A program made the position numbers and the translations under genes. Below the pieces are notes generated by a model, which searched no databases, had not been told where the DNA came from, and was given only the letters and a program-made list of their open reading frames with translations. DNA of 64,000 bases from Lepus europaeus. Taxonomy: Eukaryota > Chordata > Mammalia > Lagomorpha > Leporidae. Positions 21,246 to 64,000 of the stretch are shown here, piece after piece. The stretch lies in the NCBI RefSeq assembly GCF_033115175.1, contig NC_084845.1, positions 560,501 to 624,500 on the forward strand. Direction: 5' to 3'. How positions within the stretch are numbered: position 1 is the first letter of the stretch; the number at the start of each line of letters is the position of its first letter.

Positions 21246-21645
21246 ATTTCTACAAAGTCATTTTTAAAATTTTTTTAAAGCTTTTATTTAATGAATATAA
21301 ATTTCCAAAGTACAGCTTATGGATTACAATGGCTTCCCCCCCCATAACATCCCTCCCACCCACAACCCTCCCCTTTCTCGCTCTCTCTCCCCTTCCATTC
21401 ACATCAAGATTCATTTTCAATTCTCTTTATATACAGAAAATCAGTCTAGTATATATAAAGTAAAGATTTCAACAGTTTGCCCTCACATAGCAACACAAAG
21501 TGAAAAATACTGTTGGAGTACTAGTTATAGCATTAAATCACAGTGTACAGCACATTAATGACAGAGATATTACATGATATTTAAAAAAAATTGATTTAAT
21601 TTTCTGTGTAATTTCCAATTTAACACCAAGTTTTTTTTCATTTTC
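21246..21645 (-). mobile_element. L1 3' end, 5'-truncated (first of three)
   Basis: Minus-strand rabbit-type L1 tail: aacttttatttaatgaatat, cttatggattacaatggctt, then a C-rich block. Truncated after about 350 bp. Confidence 0.85.
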
Positions 21646-21647
21646 TT

Positions 21648-22050
21648 TTTTTTAACTTTTATTTAATGAATATAAATTTCCAAAGTACAGCTTATGGATT
21701 ACAATGGCTTCCCCCCCCCCATAACTTCCCTCCCACCCGCAACCCTCCCCTTTCCTGCTCCCTCTCCCCTTCCATTCACATCAAGATTCATTTTCAATTC
21801 TCTTTATATACAGAAGATCAGTTCAGTATATATTAAGCAAAGATTTCAACAGTTTGTACCCACATAGAAACACAAAGTGAAAAATACTGTTGGAGTACTA
21901 GTTATAGCACTAAATAACAGTGTACAGCACATTAAACACAGAGATCCTACATGATATTTTAAAAAAATTAATTAATTTTATATGCGATTTCCAATTTAAC
22001 ACCAGGTTTTTTTTTTCATTTTCAATTATTTTTTTTAAATTTTTATTTAT
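21648..22050 (-). mobile_element. L1 3' end, 5'-truncated (second of three)
   Basis: Same tail sequence again in the same orientation, directly next to the previous one and similarly truncated. Confidence 0.85.
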
Positions 22051-22057
22051 TTATTTA

Positions 22058-22917
22058 TTTTTTACTTTTATTTAATGAATATAAATTTCCAGTGTACAGC
22101 TTATGGATTACAATGGCTTCCCTCTCCCATAACTTCCCTCCCACCTGCAACCCTCCCCTCTCCCACTCCCTCTCCCCTTCCATTTGCATCAAGATTCATT
22201 TTCAATTCTCTTTATATACAGAAGATCAATTTAGTATAAAGATTTCAACAGTTTGCACCCACATAGAAACACAAAGTGAAACATACTGTTTGAGTACTAG
22301 TTATAGCATTAAATCAAAATGTACAGCACATTAAGGACAGAGATCCCACATGAGGAGCAAGTGCACAGTGGCTCCTGTTGTTGACCCAACAGATTGATAC
22401 TCTAGTTTATGGCGCCAGTAACCACCCTAGGCTCTCGTCATGAGTTGCCAAGGCTATGGAAGCCTTCCAAGTTTGCCGACTCTGATCATATTTAGACAAG
22501 GTCATAAAAGACAGAGTGAGGATAGTAACCAATGATCCTAAGAGTGGCATTAACCAGGTCTGAACAATTATACAGCATTAAGTGGGCAAGAGGACCATCA
22601 GTACACACAGGTTAGGAGTAGAGCCATTGGTGGTAGAGTAGAGGTTATGATTACAAAGGAATGAGGCCCAAGTGTGCTAGACAGGGTCTAGAACAAAGGA
22701 CAGAGTCATTATTAGAGGAGCTAAGAAAGGTGCTGTCTAAGCTACAATTAAGTTTTCTGACTGAGAGGCAAATAGAACCTGATAGAAGGGGCTTGATAAT
22801 AATCTGGTGGGCTTTAGGCCTTGTAAGTTAAGAGGCCCAGACCTATCTATCTATCTCTTCACATGGGGTATATCCTAAGGGAGGTGTGAACCTCCTGGGG
22901 GAAGGCACTCTGTTGAC
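22058..22917 (-). mobile_element. Chimeric L1 3' region (third of three)
   Basis: Begins with the L1 tail, then continues for about 450 bp more. It matches 31780-32630 of the large L1-like element in reverse complement, including its non-L1 part (see findings). 5'-truncated at ctctgttgact, about 22917. Confidence 0.88.
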
Positions 22918-22961
22918 TGGATTGTAAACATCAATGATACAGATTCACTCATCTAACAGAT

Positions 22962-23241
22962 TTTTTTTTTTTTGACAGAGTGGATAGTGAGAGAGAGAGA
23001 CAGAGAGGAAGGTCTTCCTTTTTTCCGTTGGTTCACCCTCCAATGGCCGTTGCAGCCAGTGCACCACACCAATCCGAAGCCAGGAGCCAGGTGCTTCTCC
23101 TGGTCTCCCATGCGGGTGCAGGGCCCAAGGACTTGGGCCATCCTCCACTGCCTTCCCGGGCCATAGCAGAGAGCTGGCCTGGAAGAGGGGCAACCGGGAT
23201 AGAATCTGGCGCCCCAACCGGGACTAGAACCCGGTGTGCCG
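22962..23241 (-). repeat. CSINE, left part (split by the CWF19L2 retrocopy)
   Basis: Minus-strand gacagagtgg-type copy running up to ctagaacccggtgtgccg. Its remaining head is at 32689-32732. Confidence 0.95.
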
Positions 23242-25879
23242 ACAACAATTATGGCGGCTGCCAGTGGCAGATTTGAAAGTGAGAGGAGTATCGAAGAGCG
23301 AAAAGAACAGACCTGGGTTGCCAGGGCCGAGGTGTTGTGCCAGGCTAAAGCTAACTTTGAAAAGGAAGAAAGGCGTAAAGAACTTAAACGACTTCGGGGT
23401 GAGGATACATGGATGCTACCAGATGTAAATGAGCGAATTGAACAATTCTCACAGGAACACTCTGTGAAGAAAAAGAAAAAAAAAAAAGACAAGCATTCAA
23501 AAAAAGTAAAGAAAGAGAAGAAAAAAAGAGCAAGAAAGAGAAATATGAGAAGAACAAGGAGTCATCTGATAGTTCATCTAGCTCTGAAGAGGAGTGGGTT
23601 GAAGCTGTTCCATCCCAGACTTCTCACCAGGAAAAGGCCTGGAAAGTGAAAGGTGAAAAGTCAGAAAAAGAAGATGACAGTAAAGTTATTCAGAGGGATG
23701 AGTGGATGACTGTTGATTTTATGACTGTCAAAACTGTGTCATCATCATCACTTACAGCTGAAAAGGAAACTCAAAGGAAAATAGAACAGGAGAAAACCCA
23801 AGCACTTGAGCATTCCAAACTCCTGGAAAGAGAATTGAATCCATACTGGAAGGATGGTGGAACAGGCCTTCCACCAGAAGACTGTGGTGTGTCATCGGTT
23901 ACTAAAGTTTCAGGAGTAGAAGATGGTGGATTAAGCTGGCTAAGGAAATCTTACCAGAGAATGAAGGAACAGGCTGAGAAACAAAATAAAAATCTGGAGG
24001 ACATTGTAGCTGAAAGATATGGGTCTATGGAAATATTTCAGTCGAAATTAGAAGAAGCTGAAAAAATTGCAACCAAAAAAGAAGACTATAGAAGAGAACA
24101 GTGGAGGAAACCAGCATATTCAGATATAACACAAAATAGTCAAGAAAGTAGAAAATCAGACTTTGTAAAATACAATAAAAGTTCAAAGGATAGATACAAT
24201 GCAACAGATATTGTAAATTGTAGCAGTAAAGATAAATTTATTGGGGATGAAAAAGATAAGAGATCTGAATCTTTAGAAACATATAGAAGAGAATCTGTTC
24301 CAAGGCAAAATCGAGAGTTTTCTTTTGGGAATTTGAGACCTAAATTCTTAAGACCCTCTGATGATGAAGACTTGTCATTTCACAGCAAGAGCAGAAATTT
24401 TGAACCATCTCATTCATCTACATCATGGGCAGCTGAGGGTTCTTTGCATTGTGGTTTTTGAAAACCTATCGAAAACAGTGAGAAAACTTTAACATCATTG
24501 AGTGGATTTGATGGAAGTGAAGGAGGCAAGAAACATTCAGATCAAAAGCTTTCTGAAATCAGCAGCATTGACTGTGGACACATTTCAGAAGATGTGAAAG
24601 AAAAATCACACCCTGAAAGTTTGCAAGATGACCCTCCGAAAAGAGAATATCTGCAAGACACAAAGTCTACATTTGCTGGCTGTGGTCCAGAGGATGAGTC
24701 CATCCACATCCTGAGTGTTGATGAGAAGAACAAGCTGGGAGCAAAGATTATCAAGGCAGAGATGATGGGGAATATGGAATTAGCTGAACAACTTAAAGCC
24801 CAACTTGAGAAGGCATATAAATTCAAAGAAACTATAACACAGATATCATCAAAAAAACCTGGGGTAGAGAATGAAGACCAGCAGGAAGTGGTCCTTGTCA
24901 GGACAGATCAGTCTGGAAGAGTGTGGCCTGTGAACACACCAGGAAATCCTCTGCAAGTGAAAGGAGGAAGGTTTCAACCCATGAGGAAAAAGAAAGAGTC
25001 AGATACTTTCATGATGATGATAATCTAAGCCTAAATGATTTAGTCAAAAATGAAAAGATGGGAACAGCAGAAAACCAGAACAAACTTTTTATGAGAATGG
25101 CATCTAAGTTTATGGGAAAAGCAGATGGAGATTATTATGACATGTTTGTCTCCAGAGCAGCTGAGAGAGAACGTCTTGGTGAAGAGGAAGAGAATCAGAG
25201 GAAAAGAGCTATTGCTGAGCATCAGAGTCTTGCTGCACAAATGGAAAAATGTCTGTATTGTTTTGACAGCTCTCAGTTTCTCAAGCACCTTATTGTTGCC
25301 ATAGGTGTTAAGGTTTATTTGTGTTTACCCAACTTCCAGTCTCTTACTGAGGGGCACTGCCTGATAGTCCCTTTGCAGCACCATAGAGCAGCCACATTAC
25401 TAGATGAGGATATCTGGGAGGAAATTCAGATGTTCAGAAAATCATTGGTTAAGATGTTTGAAGATAAAGGTTTGGACTGCATCTTTTTAGAAACTAACAT
25501 GAACCTGGAGAAGCAGTATCACATGATTTATGAATGTATTCCTCTCCCAAAGGAAGTGGGTGATATGGCTCCCATCTATTTTAAGAAAGCCATAATGGAA
25601 TCTGATGAAGAGTGGTCCATGAACAAGAAATTGATTGATCTTTCTTCAAAAGATATCAGAAAGTCTGTACCCAGAGGCTTGCCTTACTTCTCTGTGAACT
25701 TTGGTCTTCAAGGAGGGTTTGCCCATGTCATTGAAGATCAACACAAAAGGAATGTTGGATTTAGAACCAAGACTTTGGAGGAAAGGGATTCGAGAAAGCT
25801 TTGAAGACCAGAGGAAGAAAGCCCTGCAGTTTGCTCAGTGGTGGAAACTGTATGACTTCACCAAAAGTAAAAAATGTTA

Positions 25880-28373
25880 GAGTATATCTTTTAGTTTTAA
25901 TTCTTCAAATCTCATTCAATTGTATTTCTTTGTTATCTAAGTAAACAAGTGATTCTTAGGTCATAAGGAAGAAGCATAATGGCAGCAGACTTCCCTGGCT
26001 TTCTGAGAGCCTTGTTTGTTGGATTTTGTTATTTTCTTCCTTACTTGCTCCTGTGAACTTCATATTAGTGACTATGTATGAGTAATAGCAGATATATTGG
26101 ATAACCTGCTCAAATTCCTGTTTTGTACCTACTTCTTGGTTCTCCAAGCTATTCAGTTCATCTAGAGATAGGGCTTTTCTGAAAGAATATCTAGGAAGTA
26201 TGGCAAATCTTTGATCTAGAGAAAGTGGGCCTGCTTTAAAATAGTTGTCTATTTCCTGGCTTCTTTTGTACTTTTAACTATAAGACTTGGCATTTTCAAT
26301 AATAATTAGAATCTCTTTTCATAGAATTTTCCAGGAGAGCTAGTAGCTTAGAGTATTACTACTGTTGTTTTAGTTAAAGGAAAAAGTAATGTCCCACAAG
26401 TCTTTTGATTAAATGTTAATGAAAATATATGCATCAGTCAAGTTTGTTTTTGTTTCTGCATTTTTAACTAGTGTCTTTGAATTTTTGTGCTTTTAAAAGT
26501 AATTGTTCCTAATAGCACAATTTATAGTCATTTAGAGTTTGTGTGAAATTTATAATTTATAGCCAAATCATTGTTACATTGCTATGAAAATGAGGATACT
26601 TTAATGTTAGAAGCATATTCTTTTGTCTTTTACTTGACCTAATACCTTAATTTTTATTTGCTTTCAACATTAAGCATCAAGATAGCATCCCTCTAGTCAC
26701 AAATGTGGCTGTGGTCTGAGAATGCTCCTGCTTTTTTTTTTATATCAAAGTTACTGTTGTAGTAACCCCTATTCAAATGAATTTTTGGAAGCTGGACCTT
26801 GAAATTTTGTCACAAAATGTTGAATATCTGACATTAGTGTGAAACATCTCCTAAGCATAACTCATGTTCCAAACATTTAATTTTAATACCAGTGTCTCAT
26901 TATTTCCTTGGTAAGTTAAAGAAATGTTTGTGTTCTAGTTAGAATTTTGTTCACAAGTTGAAGTTAAATGGCTTTAGTTTTTTAATACTTAAAATTTGCA
27001 GTTGAATAATCTCACTTAGATGCTTGACAGTACTATGTGTGTACTGATGCTTTCAAACCCTTAACTTTGCTTCAAAGTCTGAAAGGAAATTTTAACATTG
27101 ACTTATTCTGTCAGTGAGTTAAACATTTTATTATAGAAAATCATGTTACCTGCTCATAGTGCAAAGATAAAAAGTCCTTCTACTTTGAATTATTTTATAG
27201 TTTAGTAGAGAGACATGTATATAAATAATTATAATATAAAATGTTCTGAGAGGCATATTTGAGTGCAGTGGTAAAGAACTTTTTAAATTTCTTGTTCATT
27301 TTCAGTGGATAACCTTGCTTCCTATTTTACTGAAGGAATAAGAAGGAGAAAGAAAGGACTTTTGATCATATCCATGAATATACCTGCATTTGTGTCCATG
27401 TATTATAGTTTTATTTTGATAATGGATAAATTATTTTACTGTTTTTATCTAGGACCAATTCACTCACTTTTGTATTGGATTTCATCCCTTCTCACTTATT
27501 TAGTTGCCCCTTCTCTCTATATATTTATTAGTTTTTTTCCTCCTCTGTAAAGGGCTATTTCCTTTAGAATACAACAACATTCTGTAGTACATCAATAACA
27601 ATTTCTGGCATCATATCCTCCTTTAACCATTTCTCTGGTTGACGGCTGAACTCATTTTTAAAAGATCTGTTTCTTCTCTCCTCAGTCTTTTTCTATTCTT
27701 TGTACAGTTAGACTTTATCCTCATCTGTGTTACTAAACTGTTCATTGTGGATATCATCAGTGACCTTCCACATAGATAAATCTAGCAAATGATGTTCAGT
27801 GTTCATTTCACTCTACCTGTCAGCAGACATATTTGATCACTTCTTTTTACTGGCTTTTCTTCATCTGCTCAGCTTCCTCAATGTTTACGTGACTATATTC
27901 AAGCATTACCTTTTGTTTATTTCTCACTATACGGGCTCTCAAAGTAATCTCATGGTTAAAATAGTTTTAAGTACAATTTTTAAGTTGACTCATTTCTTCA
28001 GCAAATATTTGTCTACCATGTGCCAGCAATAATTCTGCATGCTGGTGATAGCTCAGTGAATAAAATATCTTACTTTTTGAGAAGTTTAAAAAAGAGATTA
28101 CGGATAATGAATATTAATATTAATATTAATAAATTACTTAGAAAAAACCATAAATAATAAATACTTTGGAAAAAACTAGCATAGGCTAAAGAGGATATCT
28201 TTCAAATTTATATCTTACTATACACATCATCCCTAACTGCAGATTCATGTGTCCAAAACCAGCTTGACATTTCTACAGTATCTGTATCTGTAATAGACAA
28301 AACTATGCTGAACTCCTGATTTTTCTCCTGTTCTGATTATTTATTGCTGCATTAAAAATTACTTCAAAACTTA
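25880..28373 (+). pseudogene. CWF19L2: 3' UTR of the CWF19L2 retrocopy
   Basis: AT-rich and free of CSINEs, with no recognised older repeat. It is continuous with the retrocopy coding part and ends at the point where the poly(A) would begin (attaaaaattacttcaaaac). Confidence 0.75.
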
Positions 28374-29295
28374 GGGGGGAGCGGCAAGATGGCGGAATAG
28401 GAAGGGAGCACATTGATAGTTCGTCAAGACACACGTTAATAAAAGTGGAGATACTGCAGGGTCAAGGAAGAGTAGGGGAAGAAACAGCAGCGGAAACTCT
28501 TCTGGAACTAGTGATTCACAGTGGACCTGCGTGGAGAGTGTGGGAGCCCAAGTTCGGGACACCAGCGGCAGACTCAACACACCAGCGCTGGAACGCGAAG
28601 TGAGCCGAACCTCAATAGCCCGAGACACCAGCGGGCAAGCGGAAAGAGGAGGCTAGAGGCTTGAAACTCCGTGGGGAAAAGTTCACCAGGCTAACTAGAA
28701 GAGAGAGAGGAAAAAAAAAAAAGTGACCGATACGGACATGAGTTTCTCTCTCTCCACTCACCCCTCAAAGGTGAGCAAGACAAAGAGCAGGTGCCATTTT
28801 GGACATACGTCATAAGCAGGGCGACCTCAGGTCTGCACCGGCCCTAAGCCTAGCAGAAAAACCTGACTCTGGGGGGAGGGGTGAAATAACAGGAGATTAG
28901 GATCTAACTTGGCAATCCAGTGGGACACTGCAGGAGAATTGGAGCCCACACCGAGGGCAGCAGAGATTCCCTGTGTGGTCCTTGGGAAAGAGCTTCCGAT
29001 CTCTGGCTCCTGTGGGTATATCATTCGCCTGCTAACTACCTCCAATTACGTTCAGCTGTGCGGAATTACTTCCCTTTTGAATCAAAAAAGAAAAAAAAAA
29101 GAAAGAGAGATTTACCACGCCTAACCTGGGAGTGTCATCTTTGACACACCCTCAGCCCTGAGGAACCAAACACAGCTCTCAGTCCACACCCATCTCAAGC
29201 CTCCAAGACTCCACTGAAAGCAGACAGTCCACTTAATATAGAGCCATAGTGTAACGAGAAAAAACACCACAGTGAAGAAACCAAATATCTCCAAC

Positions 29296-30333
29296 ATGCC
29301 ATACAACAAACGCAAAAACCGAGGTAACAAGAACGAGGAAGACACTATGATGCCCCCAAATGAAAAAGACACCCCAATTCAAGATTATGAAGATGATGAG
29401 ATAGAAGAAATGCAAGAAGCGGATCTCAAAAAATTGATAAGAACATTAAGAAGTTCTCAAAAACAAATTCTTGAACTACAGAAATCCTTAATGGAGAAGA
29501 TAGAAAATCTCTCTCGTGAAAATGAAATATTAGGGAGGAATCAAAATGAAATGAAACAACTAGTAGAACATGAAACTGTGATAGTGACGAGAAATCATAA
29601 TGAAATGAAGAATTCAATAGATCAAATGACAAACACATTAGAGAGCCTTCAAAACAGAATGGGTGAAGCAGAAGAGAGAATATCAGACTTAGAAGACAGA
29701 GAACAGGAAAGGAAACAGGCAAACCAAAGAAAAGAAGAAGAAATTAGAAATCTAAAAAATATTGTCGGGAATCTACAGGATACTATTAAAAAAACTAATA
29801 TTCGGGTTCTAGGAGTTCCTGAAGGCATGGAGAGGAAGAAAGGATTAGAAGGCATTTTCAGTGAGATACCAGCAGAAAATTTCCCAGGTTTGGAGAAGGA
29901 CAGAGGCATCTTAGTACAGGAAGCTTATAGAACCCCTAATAAACATGACCAAAAGAGATCCTCACCACGACACATTGTAATCAAACTCACCACAGTGAAA
30001 CATAAAGAAAAGATTCTAAAAGGTGCAAGAGAGAAACGTCAGATTACTCTCAGAGGATCTCCAATTAGACTCACAGCAGACTTCTCAGCAGAAACCCTAC
30101 AAGCTAGAAGGGAATGGTGAGATATAGCCCAGGTACTAAGAGAGAAAAACTGCCAGCCCAGAATATTATATCCTGCAAAGCTCTCATTTGTGAATGAAGG
30201 TGAAATAAAGACTTTTCATAGCAAACAGAAACTGAAAGAATTTGTTGCCACTCATCCTGCCCTGCAAAAGATGCTTAAAGATGTGTTACATACAGAAACA
30301 CAGAAACACGGTCACCAATATGAAAGAAGGTAA
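29296..30333 (+). pseudogene. L1 ORF1p-like coding region with premature stop
   Basis: L1 ORF1p is a trimeric RNA-binding chaperone (family knowledge). Here ATG 29296 opens a protein with a long coiled coil (heptad-like, rich in E, K, N, Q, residues about 25-150). An RRM-like core follows (NIRVLGVPEG, then RGILVQEAYRTPNKHDQKR). The C-terminal block starts PRHIVIKLTTVKHKEKIL. TGA at 30118-30120 replaces the codon after ARREW. The rest of the C-terminal domain (QPRILYPAKLSF) continues in frame to TAA at 30331. A read-through or an undamaged sister copy would be complete. Confidence 0.9.
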
Positions 30334-30339
30334 AGGAAG

Positions 30340-32189
30340 GAAACCTCACAGCAAAAGATCACAGGAAGCTCAATTTCTCTTTGACATAGAATTAAACTCT
30401 GATGCTCTGTTAAAGCAATGTGTTAAAGTAATCTAAAAACAAAAAGCAATTCAAATCAATTGGCAATCTACAAAAAGAGTTAAAGATTTTAAAAGCTATT
30501 ATTAAAATTGCTATATTGGTCTATTATGCTATGTTATATGTGTGTACGTATTGTATGTCCACATAGGAAATTTTATTGAGTTTTATTTTAAATGGCTTAT
30601 AGATAAGTTTGTCCATAAATTTAAGCTGCTAAAATCAATCAAAGATACATTTTAATTTGTGTGACCTGAATCTGTGTATCACATGTTTTAAACTTGTTGG
30701 TAGAAAGAAACTAAAAACATTTTATATGTTTGTGCTTAAGCTTACTGGTTAAACAAACTATACCATGTTAGATATTGAAGAGGTGTTTTCAAATACATGA
30801 TTCTTAAAATTTATAGAAGGCATTGGACCTTCTGGTAAATGTTTTCTTAAGTTGTTATCTAATGATTGAAAGGGTTTGCTAAATATTCATGTAATATTGC
30901 TATTGTCAGCAAGCGATCTAGGACTTGCTCCCTCATTTCTCTATTGTAAGCCCAACTTGTTCTTTCATTTCTCTATTCTCTTCAAGGTAGGAAACTAATT
31001 CAATTATGAAGGAATCTGTAGGACGCACAATTTAATCTCTAGACCTTATAAAAGAGATGGCTAACATTTTTCTGTAATAGCATAGCCAAAATAAGAACTT
31101 AAATAATAATCTCATAGCTAGATTCACTTCGCCATCAGCGAAGTAAGCAGTAAGTAGAAAAAACCTCCCTTTCAGACCAAAGGGAAAGAAAGTTTTAAAG
31201 TGAGAATATAATTTTCCTCATGGGCATTGTCTACCTTAGAAAAACTACTACAGAACATGCCTGTGACTATAGACTTGTAGTTCAGGCCACCGAAGATTAG
31301 AGATGGGACTTGGGCACTCCCTTGACTAGCATCCTCTGGTCTGCTTTAACACAAACCAGGAGGAAAAGAAAGCTAGGCATCAGAAGCAATGGGTGGCAGG
31401 CCTATTAATGGCTGATCTGTACAGTGATCTGCCCTCAAGGAGACCCAACAGGCCAGTCCACTGCAGTGGCTTTCAATGTGGTAAGCCTGGGCTTCAGCAG
31501 AAGTCAGCTTGTGAAGAGCCCTGGCAGCTATGCCAAGAGTTGGATCACTGGAAATGGACCTGCCCTGGAGTTGAAGGATGCCCAGGTCAGAGCCACAGAT
31601 CTTATTGGCTCTAAGCTGAAAAGCCCTTCACTCAGCCCAACTTCCAAAGTGACCACTGCAGCTGAGGGTATGGTCAAGTAGGGTCAGCAACATTGCAGGC
31701 AGAACTGTAAATTTCTTGTTAGAGATGCCACCTGCCTTTACCTGGCCAGCTCTCCTCCTAGGCCAGCCAAGTAATGAAAGTCAACAGAGTGCCTTCCCCT
31801 AGGAGGTTCACACCTCCCTTAGGATATACCCCATGTGAAGAGATAGATAGGTCTGGGCCTCTTAACTTACAAGGCCTAAAGCCCAACAGATTATTATCAA
31901 GCCCCTTCTATCAGGTTCTACTTGCCTCTCAATCAGAAAACTTAATTGTAGCTTAGACAGCACCTTTCTTAGCTCCTCTAATAATGACTCTGTCCTTTGT
32001 TCTAGACCCTGTCTAGCACACTTGGGCCTCATTCCTTTGTAATCATAACCTCTACTCTACCACCAATGGCTCTACTCCCAACCTGTGTGTACTGATGGTC
32101 CTCTTCCCCACTTAATGCTGTATAATTGTTCAAACCTGGTTAATGCCACTCTTAGGATCATTGGTTACTATCCTCACTCTGTCTTTTAT
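30340..32189 (+). other. Non-L1 segment replacing ORF2, retroviral-like in part
   Basis: No L1 ORF2 motif is visible. At 31440-31590 a frame contains a degenerate CCHC knuckle, C-QELD-H-WKWT-C followed by P, with the first cysteine as W. An earlier CGKPG motif precedes it. At about 31690-31750 a protease-like FLVRDATCLYLA (compare FLVDTGA in retroviruses) appears in another frame. Further on, APFLAPLIMTLSFVL looks like an env transmembrane stretch. The resemblance is by eye and the frames are broken. Confidence 0.5.
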
Positions 32190-32688
32190 GACCTTGTCTA
32201 AATATGATCAGAGTCGGCAAACTTGGAAGGCTTCCATAGCCTTGGCAACTCATGACGAGAGCCTAGGGTGGTTACTGGCGCCATAAACTAGAGTATCAAT
32301 CTGTTGGGTCAACAACAGGAGCCACTGTGCACTTGCTCCTCATGTGGGATCTCTGTCCTTAATGTGCTGTACATTTTGATTTAATGCTGTAACTAGTACT
32401 CAAATAGTATGTTTCACTTTGTGTTTCTATGTGGGTGCAAACTGTTGAAATCTTTATACTAAATTGATCTTCTGTATATAGAGAGAATTGAAAATGAATC
32501 TTGATGTGAATGGAAGGGGAGAGGGAGTGGGAGAGGGGAGGGTTGTGGGTGGGAGGGAAGTCATGGGAGGGGGAAGTCATTGTAATCCATAAGCTGTACA
32601 CTGGAAATTTATATTCATTAAATAAAAGTTAAAAAAAATTACTTCAAAACTTAAAAAAAAAAAAAGAAAAAAAGAACCCGGTGTGTCG

Positions 32689-33160: not shown

Positions 33161-33906
33161 TCAGGGAAGAGCTGAGGAGGCTTCTGGAGTGGAGCGAGCA
33201 TTTTGGAGGGCAGTCCTTTGGTGCATCCTCAGGTGGCGGTGGTATGTGGATGACTGGCGATAGCTTTGGTGGCACAAGGAACACGTGTAGGGCTTCTCGC
33301 CTGTGTGAATTCTTTCATGAGCCTTCAGGTTGGTTCTGTGGCTGAACGGCTTTTCACAAGTGCTGCATACAAAAGGCTTCTCTCTTTGGTGAATCACCTG
33401 ATGCACACGCAGGTCTGAAGTCTGGAAGAAACCTTTGTGACACTCGGCACAAACGAATGGCCTCTCATTTTTGTGTCTTCTCTGGTGAGCTATCAAGTGG
33501 CTGGAATACCTAAAGACCTTGGAGCATTCCTCACATTCATATGATTTTGAGGCGTTGTGGGACCTTTCTTGATGTCCCCCACTTGTGGAGTTTCCCTCAC
33601 TACTCTGATTGGTAGGGGCAGGCTCAGGTGAGGACGCATCTGGACTGGGTAAGGGCCCTGTCCTCACCTCCATGGGGCCGTGTTGCTCAGAGGGCCCCTC
33701 TAGGCATCCTTCCTGGGACCCCGGGATGCCTTGCTCTGCACGTCTAGAACTGTGTGTGTTACTGAGAGAAACACGTCCCTCTTCAGAACTGCTGGGACTG
33801 TCCTCATCCTGGATAATGACTAGGGAAACGATTTGATCGCTCTGTTCAGTAAGAGTGTCATTTCCTTGAGTAGTTTTTGAAGAAGCGTTGCAGCCATCTT
33901 CTTCAT
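33161..33906 (-). CDS. ZSCAN4: ZSCAN4 coding exon 3 (four zinc fingers)
   Basis: Begins within the aspartate codon split with exon 2 and holds an acidic and serine-rich linker, then fingers YECEEC, FVCAEC, FVCSTC and YTCSLC. The stop is at 33161-33163. Confidence 0.94.
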
Positions 33907-35114
33907 CTGCAAAAACAGAGAAATCACTCAATGAAGCTGCACGCAGGAAAGGGCTCACTGGAACACTTCTCTGGTGTGCAGATTCCCCTCACTCACCTTG
34001 TGCTGTTGCCATGGAAGTGCCATGGCCAGTACATAAGGGTGTCCTCATGTTGTCTCCTGTGGGGGTTCCTGCTGACAGCTGTCTCTTCAGGTAAAAGATG
34101 ACGTCTTTTAGAGGCATATCCTCTGAAAAAAGGGCTTCCTGTCCCTGCATGTAGACATGGACCTGTAAACAAAGTCAGATCACCATTGAGTCTGCAGCTG
34201 TTGTAGGACAAGAGGCCTTCTGGGAGTCCAGCCCTCGGCAGGATTTCACAAGACCCTCAACTCGAGCTCATCTCCTTGTCTTGCCAGCGTGTCTGATGGT
34301 GTTATTCTTGTTATTGCCAACTTATTGCTATGTTCTACAGTCACTGTGGACACTGAGTTTGCAAGTACTGAATCACTGCTTCTAGGAAAATACAGTGTTA
34401 GTATCCTGGGAGCTTGTGGCCTCAGTATTTTCTCCAACGGCTTATCTTTACGTGCGTATATGTCGAAAGTGTTTATGAATATTTAGTATATGTTTTCTCG
34501 ATTAACTAACACTGTACTAATGGCCAAAAACATTGATAACTCATGCCTAAAGGAAGACTATCTAATCTATGAATTGAGTTCATAAGATATACTATCTTCT
34601 TGCTTTTAGGAATAGTAGTAACAGCACTTAAGCACTGCACACACATTATTTTAAATTACCAACAAAAAGCACAAGTGTGAAAATGCATGAAATAATTGAG
34701 AGCTGAAACAGAATGTAGACTTGTTCACCACCATCTGGAATGTGCTCAGCAGATGACTCAAAAAAATTTCTTTTTGCCATGCTACACAAGTTTGCAGATG
34801 ACAACATGCTTTGGGTATTGGCTTGGAAGTTACGAGTGAATTTTAGTGGTTTTCAAATATGAGATACAAGAATGAGTATTCGGGGTTGGCACTGTGGTGT
34901 AAATTAAGCCTCCACCTGCAGTGCCAGCATCCCATGTGGGTGCCAGTTTGAGTCCCTGCTAGCGTGCCTGTGAAAACAGCAGAAGATGGCCCAAGTCCTT
35001 GGGTCCCTGCACCCATGTGGAAGACAAGGAAGAAGCTCTTGGCTCCTGGCTTCAGCCTGGCCCATCTCTTGCTTTGTGGCCATTTAGGGAGTGAACTAGC
35101 AGATAGAAACTCTT

Positions 35115-35151
<37 letters not shown>

Positions 35152-35977
35152 CTAATAAATAAATAAATAAATAAATAAATCTTTTAAAAACAACTTAAAA
35201 AAGAATGAGGATTCACTGTGATTTAATATCTTTCCAGATAAAAATCACAATAAGCCTTTTTGAGGAAAATAACCAGTTTTTAAGGCATTTCTTCTTCATC
35301 CTTGAGTTCTTAGCTCAAATATTAATTTCTCAGAGTCCCTTGCCACTGTACCAAACAAAATTAGCTCCATGTTTGGCTCCTATATGTCCTACAGAACAAA
35401 TACAGGCCTTTTTGCTTTTTTTTCTTGCTTCCTTAAACCCGTGGAAATTCTCCTTGGTGAAGAAGAGTGGTGGGAGAGTACTCTGACTAATAAGGGGGTC
35501 TACCATAACTGTCTCTACTTCCAGGTGGTTCCACCTGACTCTTGCCTCCCTGTCCCCTCCCCCCAGGGCTCAGAGCCCTTGACTTACTAAGACAGGTGGC
35601 TTCGTGCAGTCGTCATTTAGGTCTTCCATTAGTTTCTCCAGGTTTCTGCCTCTTGCTTCCCATTTCTTCTTCAACGTGGGCTTGTCCCTGGGGTGGCCAC
35701 TCATCATAAATTGCTCAAAAACCAGTTGAGAGATAATTTCTTCCTTGCTGTGCTTTTCGGGCTGCAGCCACGAGCAAAAAGACTCAAAGAGTCTTTGCAG
35801 CTCCTGCCTTGAACTTGAGTTACTGTTGTACCGAAATGTGTCGACTATGCTCAAGCCCTCAGAGGTCTCTCCTGTCTGAGGAGCGGATTCTTGGGTTGTT
35901 GTCAACTCTGGGTTGTCTGGATTAAGATCATTCCTGGATGGCTTCCTTTTCAAGGAAGTTCTAAGATCTAAAGCCAT
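33161..35977 (-). CDS. ZSCAN4: ZSCAN4 (SCAN domain plus four C2H2 fingers)
   Basis: ZSCAN4 is expressed at embryonic genome activation and in rare 2-cell-like stem cells, where it promotes telomere recombination and demethylation (established knowledge). Three coding exons are read on the minus strand: 35977-35588 (390 nt), 34162-33997 (166 nt) and 33906-33161 (746 nt). The splice sites are TTA|GTAAGT, TTTACAG|GT, CAAG|GTGAGT and TTTGCAG|AT. The total of 1302 nt gives 433 residues, the length I recall for human ZSCAN4. It starts MALDLRT. The SCAN domain is about residues 51-118 ([20 protein letters not shown]). Four fingers cover about 308-414, the third joined to the fourth by TGEKPY, and the end is [10 protein letters not shown]. 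No stop or frameshift was seen. The finger 2-3 linker is HQREKPF, not a canonical TGEKP. Confidence 0.95.
33997..34162 (-). CDS. ZSCAN4: ZSCAN4 coding exon 2
   Basis: 166 nt, entered in phase 0 ([20 protein letters not shown]) and left in phase 1. The frame is open throughout. Confidence 0.92.
34215..34865 (-). other. ZSCAN4 intron, no feature seen
   Basis: AT-rich intron sequence without recognised repeats up to the CSINE duplication at 34868. Confidence 0.6.
34882..35200 (+). repeat. CSINE in ZSCAN4 intron, 14-bp duplication
   Basis: Plus-strand copy with a CT-rich stretch and a long AAAT tail. Aagaatgagtattc at 34868-34881 is repeated with one change at 35201-35214. Confidence 0.93.
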
Positions 35978-36031
35978 TTTTAGTTAAGAGTTCTCAGACT
36001 CCGACTTAACTATTCAACCCTTCTTGTGTCT
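35588..36031 (-). CDS. ZSCAN4: ZSCAN4 coding exon 1 with short 5' UTR
   Basis: The coding part is 35977-35588. A plausible acceptor (CATTTTCAG|AGACAC) puts the exon start at 36031, giving 54 nt of 5' UTR and implying at least one upstream noncoding exon. Confidence 0.85.
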
Positions 36032-37138: not shown

Positions 37139-37370
37139 AAGAATAAATCCAACAAAAGATATGCACAATCTCTACACAGATAACCACAAAGCAACAATAA
37201 ACATGTGGAGAGATAACCGATGCTCATGAATTGGAAGTCACCATTAAAAAGGATGCCATCAAACTCCAGATTTCTTTTAACACTTCATGAAAGCAATCTG
37301 AAGAAAATCCAGAAATCCAAACTGTGAAATTCATATGCTAACTGTAAAGACAAATAAAAAATTTAAAATA

Positions 37371-50515: not shown

Positions 50516-50528
50516 AGGAATGAAACCA

Positions 50529-50858
50529 AGCTGGCGCCGTGGCTCAACAGGCTAATCCTCTGCCTAGTGGCGCTGGCGCACTGGGTTCTAGTCCTGCTCG
50601 GGGCGCTGGATTCTGTCCCGGTTGCCCCTCTTCCAGGCCAGCTATCTGCTGTGTCCCGGGAGTGCAGTGGAAGATGGCCCAAGTGCTTGGGCCCTGCACC
50701 CTCATGGGAGACTAGGAGAAGCACCTGGCTCCTGCCTTCGGATCAGCGCAGTGCGCTGGCTGCGGTGCGCAGGTCGCAGCGGCCACTGGAGGGTGAACCA
50801 ATGGCAAAGGAAGACCTTTCTCTTTGTCTCTCTCTCTCACTGTCCACTCTGCCTGTAC
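50529..50858 (+). repeat. CSINE part of the chimera
   Basis: Young subtype (ctggcgccgtggctcaacag), complete to ctctgcctg, where the poly(A) would start. Confidence 0.92.
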
Positions 50859-51985
50859 AACTTACTACTCTGCCTGAACAACTTAATACATTATCCCTCT
50901 TAGTATTTTTTTTTGTTTGTTCTACTTAATACTTTTGGTTGAATACTGTAATCAATACACAGTTATTCTTAAGTGTTGAAACTTAACTGAAAAGTGATCA
51001 CTGTTAAATATAAGAGTGGGAATAAGAGAGGTAAGAGATGTGCAATTTGGGACATGCTAAAGCTGACTTGCCCCAAACGGTTAGAAACATACCAGGGGAC
51101 TCCAATTCAATCCCATCAAGGTGGTAGGTACCAATGTCATCTCACTAGTCCAAGTGATCAATTTCTGTTCACAATTGATCATAATGATAGGACTAAGAGG
51201 CAAAGGGGATCACACAAATAAGACTAGTGTCTGCAAATACTAACTGATAGAATAAAAAAGGGAGAGAACGATCCAACATGGGACACGAGATACACAGCAG
51301 ACTCATAGAATGGCAGATGTCCTAAATAGCACTCTGGCCTCAGAATCAGCCCTTAAGGCACTTGGATCCGGCTGAAAAGCCCATGAGAGTATTGTAGGCA
51401 TGGAAAGCCAAGACACTCTGGAAAAAAAATGACCTAAATGAAAGATCTCTGCGAGTGAGATCCCAGTGGAAAGAACAGGTCATCAAAGAAGGAGGTATCT
51501 TTCTCTGAAGGGAGGAGGAGAGAACTTCCACTTTGACTACGATCTTGTCTAAATATGACCAGAGTCGGTGAACTCAAAAGGCTTCCATAGCCTTGGCAAC
51601 TCATGACAAGATCCTAGGGTGATTACTGATGCCATAAACAAGAGTGTCAATTTGTTAAGTCAACAACAGGAGTCACTGTGCTCTTACTCCTCATGTAGGA
51701 TCTCTGTCCTTAATGTGCTGTACATTTTGATTTAATGCTATAACTAGTACTCAAACAGTATGTTTCACTTTGTGTTTCTATGTGGGTGCAAACTGTTGAA
51801 ATCTTTACTTAGTATATGCTAAACTGATCTTCATTGAAAATGAATCTTGATGCAAATGGAAGGGGAGAGGGAGCGGGAAAGGGGAGGGTTGCAAGTGGGA
51901 GGAAAGTTATGGGGGTGGGGAAGCCATTGTAATCCATAAGTTGTACTTTGGAAATTTATATTCATTAAATAAAAATTAAAAAAAA
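50859..51985 (+). mobile_element. L1 3' region of the chimera
   Basis: Contains canonical L1 3'-UTR sequence, including gatcttgtctaaatatga onward, which also ends the element at 28374-32633. Confidence 0.88.
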
Positions 51986-51999
51986 GAATGAAACCAGTT

Positions 52000-53939: not shown

Positions 53940-54600
53940 ACGGCCCAACGAGCAGTTTTGGAAATCATCAAGGGCTAATGAAGTAAAAGTACATTAGCTA
54001 CATAAAAATGCCCAGCCCTTAGGAGCCCACGTCCCATACCAGTACCGGATCAGGCCCATTCCATTGATTGGTGATAGGATCCTTGCATTTTACCATTGCT
54101 CTTTTCGCAGCTGTTTATGGATGCCAATGTCGATCAGCTGCAGAATGACCATCTTTATCCAATTTGAAAAAATTTAAAATGAAAAGGCATGTGAGAGCCA
54201 CCTGTTAGGAGAATGGGCAGAAACCCCAAACTCCCCCCTCTCCATTCCATTAAAATATTGTTTAAAGTATGATGTGTACATCAAACACTGTCTTGACCCA
54301 GAGGATTATAAGGAATGTCAGTAACATGAGATATAAAAAAGGTTGTGCAAAAAATGTTTAAAAGAAGTAGAAGTATAAGCAGGTCCATTATCCCTCTTAA
54401 TCTGCTTTGGAGTTCCTAGGGAAGCAAAAGCTTGCAAGCAATGGGCAATAACATGTTTTGTAGCTTTACCTGTATGTAAGGAAGCAAAAATTAATCCAGA
54501 ACAGGTATCAATAGACATGTATATATTTTTGTTTACCGAATTCCATGAGGTGGGTGATATCCATTTGCCATAGTTGACTGGGGACAATCTTCTGGATGTA
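53940..54600 (-). pseudogene. Retroviral integrase remnant
   Basis: Catalytic core text around DTCSG and DNGPAYTS (ORF at 54318-54587). The C-terminal NQW/GPDPVL-type segment is near 53995-54090, in another frame. The zinc-binding N-terminal domain is missing because the deletion junction near 54565 joins it straight to RT. Confidence 0.8.
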
Positions 54601-54960
54601 AAGGTATTGTGTAAAAACAGTCTTTTAAATCTATTATTGCAATATAAGAGTCCTTGGGATTTGCAGTAAGCAATGGTAAACCTGGTTGCAAGGCCCCCAT
54701 ATTTTCCATAGTAGCATTAACTGCCCTAAGGTCCTGAAGAAACCGCCATCTCCCAGATTTCTTTTTGATAACAAAAATAGGACTATTCCAAAGAGAATGA
54801 GAAGGAACTATATGTCCTGCTGTTAATTGTTCTTCCACCAATAGCTGTGCAGCATTTATCTTTTCCTTCGGTCAAGGCCACTGATCCACCCACACGGGAT
54901 TATCTGATTTTCATTTTATTTTATTTTTTTTTGCGTGGGGCACAAGCTGACCAGTAGCCA
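54565..54960 (-). pseudogene. Retroviral reverse transcriptase remnant (N-terminal)
   Basis: Carries [26 protein letters not shown], then [16 protein letters not shown], the fingers and first catalytic aspartate region of a betaretrovirus-like RT. It stops before the YxDD box. The remainder of RT and RNase H are deleted. Confidence 0.88.
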
Positions 54961-55660
54961 TCAAGGGAAACCCAAGCCTCTCTGGTCATGATGGACAGTT
55001 AAAATAACTGGAGATGTGATGCCTTGTTGTTGTTTGCCTAAACCCTTACCTGGCAAATGACCTTGTTGAAGTATGTTAATGGTAACAATCGTATTTGGAC
55101 TACACATTAAAGCCCCCATTTGAGTTAGAATATCATGGCCAAATAGATTAACAGGTAATACAGCCAAAATGTAGGGGCGACAGGTTCCAGCATTACCTGC
55201 TTCATCCTCCCAATGCAACAATTCGGTTGTGCTAATCTCTGACTCTGACCAATACCTCACAATTGAGTCATGGTAATTTCCTTTCTCCAATTTGTGGGCC
55301 AGCTTGCTGCTGAAATAACAGAGACATCAGCTCCAGTATCTAAAAGACCCTTGAATAATTTTCCATTTAATTTCAATTGAAATTTCGATCTGTCCTTTAT
55401 TATAGGCTGGACCGAATAAGCATCTGAAGACCCAAAACATCCTTCCCCACAGGAATTTGCCAATGTGGCTCCAAATAAGGCAAGAGGAAGAAGGACCAGC
55501 TGAGTAATGTGCTGTCCTGGAGAAAGTGTGACAATAGTACCATTAGCTTGGGCCATAATTTTAATTTCTCCCATGAAATCTTCATCTATAACCCCAGGGG
55601 AAACTTGCAGTCCGGCCAGAGTAGTACTATTTCTTTCTAACAAAAGCCCAAAAAAATCCC
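54961..55660 (-). pseudogene. Retroviral dUTPase-protease with G-patch
   Basis: The dUTPase C-terminal part (GVIDEDFMGEI) is followed by the protease active site LLDTGADVSVI and, after a frame break near 55260, by a glycine-rich G-patch (GKGLGKQQQGI). This order is that of the betaretroviral pro gene. Confidence 0.85.
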
Positions 55661-55739
55661 TCAGGAAGTGTGGTCCACTGATCCCTGTAGGGAGGGCCTG
55701 AGGCTGGCCCTGCTTCCAGTTTCCCGAACTCTGTTCTTT

Positions 55740-55970
55740 AATGAATTACCTTCTTTATCAGTTTTGGCGCGACATTTATTGGCCCAGTGCCTTCCCCTTT
55801 TGCACTAGGGGCAAATCCCAGGAGGAGTCTTATTTTGATTTCTAGCTTTTGGACAATTTTTGCACATGTCCCTGCTGCCCACATTTATAGCACCCTCATT
55901 TATTGAGCATAACCCTCCTTGTTGATTTTTGTAATGACATACCATGCAGAGCGGCAGGTCCTGAATGTCC
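55740..55970 (-). pseudogene. Retroviral nucleocapsid zinc-knuckle remnant
   Basis: A minus-strand frame shows C-x2-C-GxxGH-like and C-x2-C-KxGRHW-like knuckles, the second with a damaged first half, just upstream of the dUTPase region. Frames are interrupted by stops. Confidence 0.6.
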
Positions 55971-63062: not shown

Positions 63063-64000
63063 ACCATTGCTCTTTTTGCAGCTGTTTTTGGATGCCAGTG
63101 TTGATCAGCTGCAGAATGACCACCTTTATCCAATGTGAGAAAATTTAAAATGAATAAAGCATGTGAGAACCATTTGCTAGCTGAATGGGCAGAAACCCCG
63201 AACTCCCCCTTTTTTATTTTATTGAAATATTGCTTTAAAGTATTATGTGTACGTTTAACAGTGCCTTGACCCTGAGGATTATAAGGAATGTCAGTAACAT
63301 GAGATATAAAAAAAAGTTACACAAAAAGTTTTAAAAGAGGCAGAAATATAAGCAGGTCCATTATCCGTTTTAATCTGCTTTGGAGTTCCTAGAGAAGCAA
63401 AAGCTTGTAAGCAATGGGCAATAACATGTCTTGTAGCTTCACCTGTATGTAAGGAGGCAAAAATAAATCCAAAACAAGTATCAATAGACACATGTATATA
63501 TTTTTGTTTACCGAATTGCATGAAGTGGGTAATATCCACTTGCCATAGTTGATTGGGGAATAAACCGCGAGGATTAATTCCAAAGTGAGGTACTGGTAAC
63601 TGGATGGAGCAAGTAGAACAGGATTTTACAATCTGTTGAGCTTGTTTTCAAGTAATATTGTTTTAAAGTAATGTATGAGCATTTAAATGATGTAAAGCAT
63701 GATCTATTGTTGCTGTATCAATAGAATATATGCATAGAGCAGAATCTGCCAAACGATTACCCTCTACCAAAGGCCCAGGAAGATTGGAATGTGCTCGAAT
63801 ATGAGCTATAAAGAAAGGGCAGGTATGCTGTCAAATGACAGTGCAAATGCAAGAAAACAAAGGAGAAGCAGCTGAGGATTCAGGAAGGAATGAACAAGTT
63901 TCCAATTGAGGCACCGATAGGAACACATATTTGCTATCAGTGTATATGTTAACCACTACATCCAAAGTAGACTGCAATGCAAGTGCAACAGCAGCTAATT
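63063..64000 (-). mobile_element. Second copy of the class II provirus (pol part), cut by window end
   Basis: From ccattgctctttttgcagct it follows the provirus at 54088 onward with modest divergence. It contains the integrase C-terminal side, the core (DNGPAYIS, 63291-63539), an HHxC-type N-terminal domain (HHLNAH, then C-x2-C) and the end of RNase H (YTDSKYV near 63940). These last parts are deleted in the first copy. Stops and frameshifts are present. No LTR on its left side is seen: it joins a CSINE fragment directly. Confidence 0.88.

Follow-up and report, generated by a model that had tools for sequence, protein, structure and literature searches.

An L1 insertion in Lepus europaeus with ORF1 and no detected ORF2, probably a non-autonomous rabbit L1 derivative

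The window analysed here is a 64,000-nucleotide stretch of the Lepus europaeus genome (contig NC_084845.1, positions 560,501 to 624,500). It contains an element composed of an L1 5' UTR, ORF1, a segment in place of ORF2 (segment X), and an L1 3' end. We consider, with a probability of roughly 0.7, that a non-autonomous derivative of rabbit L1 was inserted here by means of L1 enzymes. Insertion by the L1 machinery is suggested because the element has a target-site duplication (TSD) and an L1 tail and no ORF2 was found. The features are listed in Table 1.

Table 1. Coordinates of the element, its parts, and related L1 sequences in the window
Feature	Position	Strand	Basis
TSD, 5' copy, 20 bp, perfect	28354..28373	+	Exact match
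L1 5' UTR, apparently complete	28374..29295	+	Abuts TSD; A-rich sense strand in most composition windows
ORF1, 345 codons before TAA, one in-frame TGA at 30118-30120	29296..30333	+	Pfam, protein alignment, period-3 signal
Segment X, in place of ORF2	30334..32187	+	Composition change-point; no ORF2 found; match of other L1 3' end begins at 32187
G+C-richer middle of X, site of alleged gag/protease remnants; no profile match	31241..31790	+	Composition, Pfam, period-3
L1 3' end, purine-rich tract and short A tail	32188..32633	+	Tail alignments
TSD, 3' copy	32634..32653	+	Exact match
Second copy of 31779-32638 (end of X and L1 tail); begins inside X	22055..22918	-	BLAST, 97.3%; no TSD found
L1 3' end of another lineage, different DNA upstream	51538..51985	+	86% identity, matching only from 32187 on

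Boundaries and insertion site

The element occupies exactly positions 28374-32633, the span between the two copies of the TSD AAAAATTACTTCAAAACTTA (28354-28373 and 32634-32653). As had been predicted from a first inspection, this 20-bp duplication is perfect; its sequence was found just two times on the plus strand of the window. The insertion site is ATT/AAAAATT (slash, point of insertion), and the opposite strand reads TTTTT/AA, which we take to be close to the L1-endonuclease type TTTT/AA. The marks of an L1-mediated insertion were found together: the TSD, an L1 3' end with an A tail, and a site presumed to be of the endonuclease type.

The element opens with GGGGGGAGCGGCAAGATGGCGGAATAGG, which resembles a complete L1 start and abuts the TSD, in agreement with the intact L1 5' end of the original prediction. 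In the 5' UTR, Rfam gave one sub-threshold match (E = 0.085). The element ends approximately 0.5 kb beyond the 3' end of a zinc-finger reading frame. On the minus strand there, C2H2 zinc fingers (33161-33985, 4.1e-20) and a SCAN domain (35573-35983, 3.8e-19) were matched, and this locus (33161-35983) resembles ZSCAN4.

ORF1

ORF1 is full length with a single premature stop, the TGA at 30118-30120, as the original prediction stated. In Pfam, Transposase_22 (5.6e-24), the L1 RBD-like domain, was matched upstream of the TGA, and Tnp_22_dsRBD (4.3e-21), the L1 dsRBD-like domain, was matched downstream. The period-3 signal of ORF1 was reached by 0/2000 shuffles. A protein search gave 847 relatives at E ≤ 0.001, the best 34 of which (P0001-P0034) were all UniRef proteins of Oryctolagus cuniculus. 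Among the matches listed, the identity to the nearest UniRef proteins was 89-90%, and that to the rabbit ORF1 protein P0001 was 89.9% over all 345 residues. In a tree of 39 rows, the piece of ORF1 before the TGA fell within the rabbit group, in an unresolved part. These relatives point to rabbit, or a species close to it, as the source. By Pfam and alignment, the element has the ORF1 of L1, as expected of HAL1 (half-L1), the mammalian elements reportedly treated by Bao and Jurka in 2010.

At the position of the TGA, Arg is present in 32/34 of the best relatives and Gln in 1/34; the remaining one was unreadable by the pattern. This points to CGA to TGA as the likely change behind the premature stop. 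With Arg in 32/34 rabbit relatives, and since CpG sites commonly mutate in this way, the element may have had an unbroken ORF1 when it was inserted.

Absence of ORF2

The original prediction held that reverse transcriptase and endonuclease are lacking between ORF1 and 32190, and neither was detected by six-frame Pfam or by tblastn. The profile search for ORF2 similarity, a positive outcome of which would have spoken against the original prediction, was run on 30334-32250 with stops written as X. It gave no ORF2 domain; up to E = 10, the only match was one minus-strand bacterial family (0.26). In tblastn with P0038, a UniRef rabbit protein that contains L1 reverse transcriptase, the element was matched in ORF1 only (29626-29976). 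The sole other match in the window (37143-37235, E = 0.28) is at chance level and lies outside the element. P0038 itself is not in the window, and in it an ORF1 piece is joined directly to the reverse transcriptase; it would stem from a rabbit L1 with an internal deletion or from an error of the gene model. The ORF2 with endonuclease and reverse transcriptase that marks an autonomous L1 was not detected. The ORF2-less state that marks HAL1 was found for the element 28374-32633 alone.

Extent and recurrence of segment X

The sense strand is A-rich through the end of ORF1. AT skew was 0.27-0.52 in 17/19 composition windows across 28374-30373, and the two exceptional ones (0.00 and 0.08) lie in the 5' UTR. 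Across 30374-32273, AT skew was -0.24 to 0.23; the A-richness is gone after ORF1. The change-point of base composition was placed at 30374 (2-log-unit interval 30358-30487), so the non-L1-like stretch is about 1.70-1.83 kb long. Counted from the ORF1 stop, X measures 1.85 kb, and the predicted replacement of about 1.85 kb is confirmed on that count.

BLAST within the window placed a second copy of 31779-32638 at 22918-22055 on the minus strand; the two are 97.3% identical over 864 bp. After realignment, the X part had 4 gap columns and, among its 408 aligned positions, 7 mismatches; the tail had 12 mismatches in 452. The two X-bearing copies thus differ at 19/860 positions (2.2%), or about 1.1% per copy, which at the mammalian rates that we assume would correspond to a few million years. 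The last 409 bp of X and the same tail thus lie together at a second place, and this end of X, if not more of it, moves along with L1 tails. The match ends in the A tail and starts inside X, as in a 5'-truncated L1 insertion. No TSD was found around the second copy, where the shared sequence consists of A runs only, so that its origin by retrotransposition is presumed.

Within the window, the ORF1-X junction is present in one copy only, and no second copy of 30334-31778 was found. An ordinary L1 might therefore have inserted first, and a single local rearrangement might have created X, or its left part, later. We regard this as unlikely, since the end of X stands with the same tail in another copy, which ties the right part of X, at the least, to that tail. 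The insertion of a non-autonomous L1 derivative remains the preferred reading. Against it stand the single junction, which a one-off deletion or rearrangement at that point might explain, and a second copy that reaches back no more than 409 bp into X and around which no TSD was found.

Two other features lie beside the second copy. At 23203-25804 (+), several reading frames follow one another, overlapping or side by side. Pfam matched CwfJ_C_1 (1.2e-38) and CwfJ_C_2 (3.9e-13) in 24875-25801 and gave no match in 23442-24458. The row is probably a decayed retrocopy, which we take to be CWF19L2-like. Directly after the second copy, at 21268-21954 (minus strand), two L1 tails of the same orientation are separated by 377 bp, and the DNA that precedes one is similar to that preceding the other. 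A unit with an L1 tail seems to have been duplicated in tandem.

L1 3' ends in the window

The predicted L1 3' tail was recovered: within the window, the tail of the element has one match at 97% and five at 85-89% among the other L1 tails. Six tails were aligned, those of the element and the second copy included, and a seventh, short tail (57251-57138) was left out. The element and the second copy share tail variants that are absent from the four other aligned tails, among them a 9-bp gap and ACACTGG for ACTTTGG. The L1 3' end at 51538-51985 matches the element only from 32187 on. When X was compared with the 681 bases before that tail (50860-51540), the best match had an E value of 0.096 over 20 bases, a chance length. 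These data indicate that L1 3' ends in the window differ upstream of the common last 450 bp. Tails of the X type may be common, to judge from the two that this 64-kb window holds. The other tail is part of a larger unit (50518-51996), in which a SINE-like unit, presumably of the rabbit C-repeat type, is followed by the L1 3' end, flanked by the 11-bp repeat GAATGAAACCA at 50518 and 51986. The whole appears to be one chimeric insertion of SINE and L1.

In one form of the preferred reading, X would be a long 3' UTR belonging to an autonomous rabbit L1 subfamily of young age, with ORF2 lost from this copy by RNA splicing, a template jump, or an internal deletion. We hold this to be a serious possibility, somewhat short of even odds. 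The two most alike tails in the window are both of the X type, and the five others reach 85-89% as measured against the element only. On the other hand, no ORF2 remnant was detected, and about 2.2 kb would be long for a 3' UTR. Replacement of L1 3' UTRs is outlined in PMC5753468, and spliced L1 insertions in human are outlined in PMC5860796; the latter, as described there, concern the 5' UTR and ORF1 and not the removal of ORF2.

In the other form, which we propose more tentatively, the element would belong to a HAL1-like family whose master itself lacked ORF2, with many rabbit copies sharing the 5' UTR-ORF1-X-tail layout. Such a family fits an element that was inserted in its present form between perfect TSDs, with a full-length ORF1 whose one stop is of likely CpG origin, and with the end of X and the tail in a second copy. 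It also fits the outline in PMC5753468 that HAL1s arose several times in mammals. However, of copies that could share the ORF2-less structure, the second one in the window begins within X, does not include the ORF1-X junction, and is silent on ORF2.

Source of segment X

The original prediction derived X from an endogenous retrovirus (ERV), citing a degenerate CCHC knuckle, a protease-like stretch, and an env-like hydrophobic stretch. With stop-to-stop pieces and whole frames of X, no match of a retroviral kind was obtained in Pfam, PDB, or the protein database, and this source is not supported. Pfam on the six frames gave nothing at E ≤ 0.1, and the proposed check with zf-CCHC, RVP, and TLV_coat produced no match to any of the three; pieces of X gave a weak match to DUF2650 (E = 0.74). 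In the protein database, the 94-aa frame of the knuckle had no candidate, and a longer frame had 74 candidates, none at E ≤ 10. The frames of X had two weak PDB matches (E = 1.1 and 1.2), both to bacterial binding proteins, and no others. As a control, four decayed ERV pieces from elsewhere in the window were scanned with Pfam, and 3/4 were positive (RVP 9.7e-12, RVT_1 1.1e-8, rve 8.3e-19). The fourth piece gave no match, so a decayed piece can be missed. ERV pol fragments in decay, with RT, dUTPase and protease, and integrase, are located at 54533-55745 and 63291-63647, both on the minus strand.

The knuckle C-QELD-H-WKWT-C, when extended upstream, has 3/4 zinc ligands. Among dinucleotide shuffles of X, 3/4 ligands occurred in 106/1000, the C-x4-H-x4-C half in 26/1000, and all four ligands in 1/1000. 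At this chance frequency, and with zf-CCHC unmatched in Pfam, the knuckle is not upheld. The retroviral protease motif includes D-[ST]-G. The stretch FLVRDATC fits 4/8 motif positions, and D, S/T, and G all fail. The best fit in X over the three plus-strand frames is 6/8 and lies elsewhere, and 973/1000 shuffles reach at least 6. FLVRDATC thus has none of the catalytic residues, its score is lower than chance would give, and it had no Pfam or PDB match; its reading as a protease was dropped. The env reading failed likewise, as the hydrophobic stretch had no match to TLV_coat or any other relevant Pfam family.

Period-3 signals were determined for nine stretches in all. For 31241-31790, p was 0.054 against base shuffles, a borderline value, and the strength was 1.54, compared with 1.69 and 1.98 for two ERV pieces, whose p values were 0.039 and 0.012. 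The knuckle frame alone had p = 0.143, and 30434-31240, 31791-32187, the tail, and the 5' UTR had p values of 0.13-0.95. The borderline signal and the higher G+C content of 31241-31790 would be compatible with a decayed coding origin.

These observations bear on whether an L1 captured an ERV piece with a gag end, protease, and env. The G+C-richer middle of X with its period-3 strength near that of two ERV pieces, and one knuckle-like stretch with 3/4 ligands, would agree with such a capture. Yet X had no retroviral match in three databases while the same Pfam scan was positive in 3/4 ERV controls, and FLVRDATC is without the catalytic residues of a protease. The retroviral reading of X is not supported, and we judge the capture improbable. 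The wider proposal is a young rabbit family of ORF1-only L1s in many copies, driven in trans by full L1s, in which foreign DNA, possibly retroviral gag-pol in decay, was captured and took the place of ORF2. This is improbable as a whole. What stood of it is the ORF1-only L1 with a TSD and the recurrence of the end of X with the tail, which fit a mobilised family; what fell away is the retroviral source, for which no profile match was found.

Other sources were also searched. Within 30334-32200, three short pairs of direct repeats (16-23 nt) and no inverted pair were found, and hence no LTR-like pair. Exact-word scans of viral contigs and genome contigs with words from the window gave 0 matches, and BLASTN of 30340-32190 against phages gave no match. 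Against plasmids, the same query matched two Borreliella mayonii records over about 50 bases at 87%, which was taken as chance.

Mobilization and related systems

For the non-autonomous L1 derivative, we propose the following course. An RNA with the layout 5' UTR-ORF1-X-tail would be made from the L1 promoter. It would be copied at a nicked target by the endonuclease and reverse transcriptase of intact L1s, presumably supplied in trans. ORF2p would act either in trans for a master without ORF2 or after ORF2 was lost from the RNA. In the simplest account, a young lineage of rabbit L1 would have gained X as its 3' region through 3'-UTR replacement, with ORF2 lost in the present copy or missing from a HAL1-like lineage.

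SVA carries a defined ERV piece and no ORF1. The element resembles SVA and other composites mobilised by L1 in that a composite RNA would be moved by L1; it differs in that ORF1 is present and no ERV piece was detected. Like the mammalian HAL1, it has ORF1 without ORF2 and would be moved by L1 enzymes, but it carries a large segment before the L1 tail, known here from one copy with the ORF1-X junction. It shares with autonomous rabbit L1s (P0001-P0034) the L1 tail, the TSD, and an ORF1 89-90% identical to the nearest of those listed, whereas no ORF2 was detected and the sequence upstream of 32187 is unlike that before the L1 3' end at 51538-51985. The spliced human insertions called SpIREs, as outlined in PMC5860796, are also L1 insertions without an internal part; there the 5' UTR and ORF1 are affected, while the present element lacks ORF2 and has other DNA.

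The element is compatible with the published frame of UTR replacement, HAL1 origins, splicing, and RNA recombination. L1 UTR replacement and repeated HAL1 origins are reported in PMC5753468. According to PMC4161310, SINEs, and likely HAL1s too, use the machinery that L1 provides. PMC5860796 treats insertions of spliced L1 in human and gives the length of the ORF1-ORF2 spacer as 63 bp. Recombination of L1 with other RNAs is described in PMC13174262, where chimeras are speculated to drive 5' UTR swaps. The titles and abstract openings among the literature matches listed name no ORF2-less rabbit L1, which is not a claim of absence from print.

The analysis removes an unsupported retroviral label from X. 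If X is a mere 3' UTR variant, the element is ordinary, yet it would document that rabbit L1s, too, have had a 3' UTR replaced. Should many rabbit copies have the layout without ORF2, it would be a recent rabbit case of the repeated origin of half-L1s, and it would allow a test of why such an element keeps ORF1 while borrowing ORF2.
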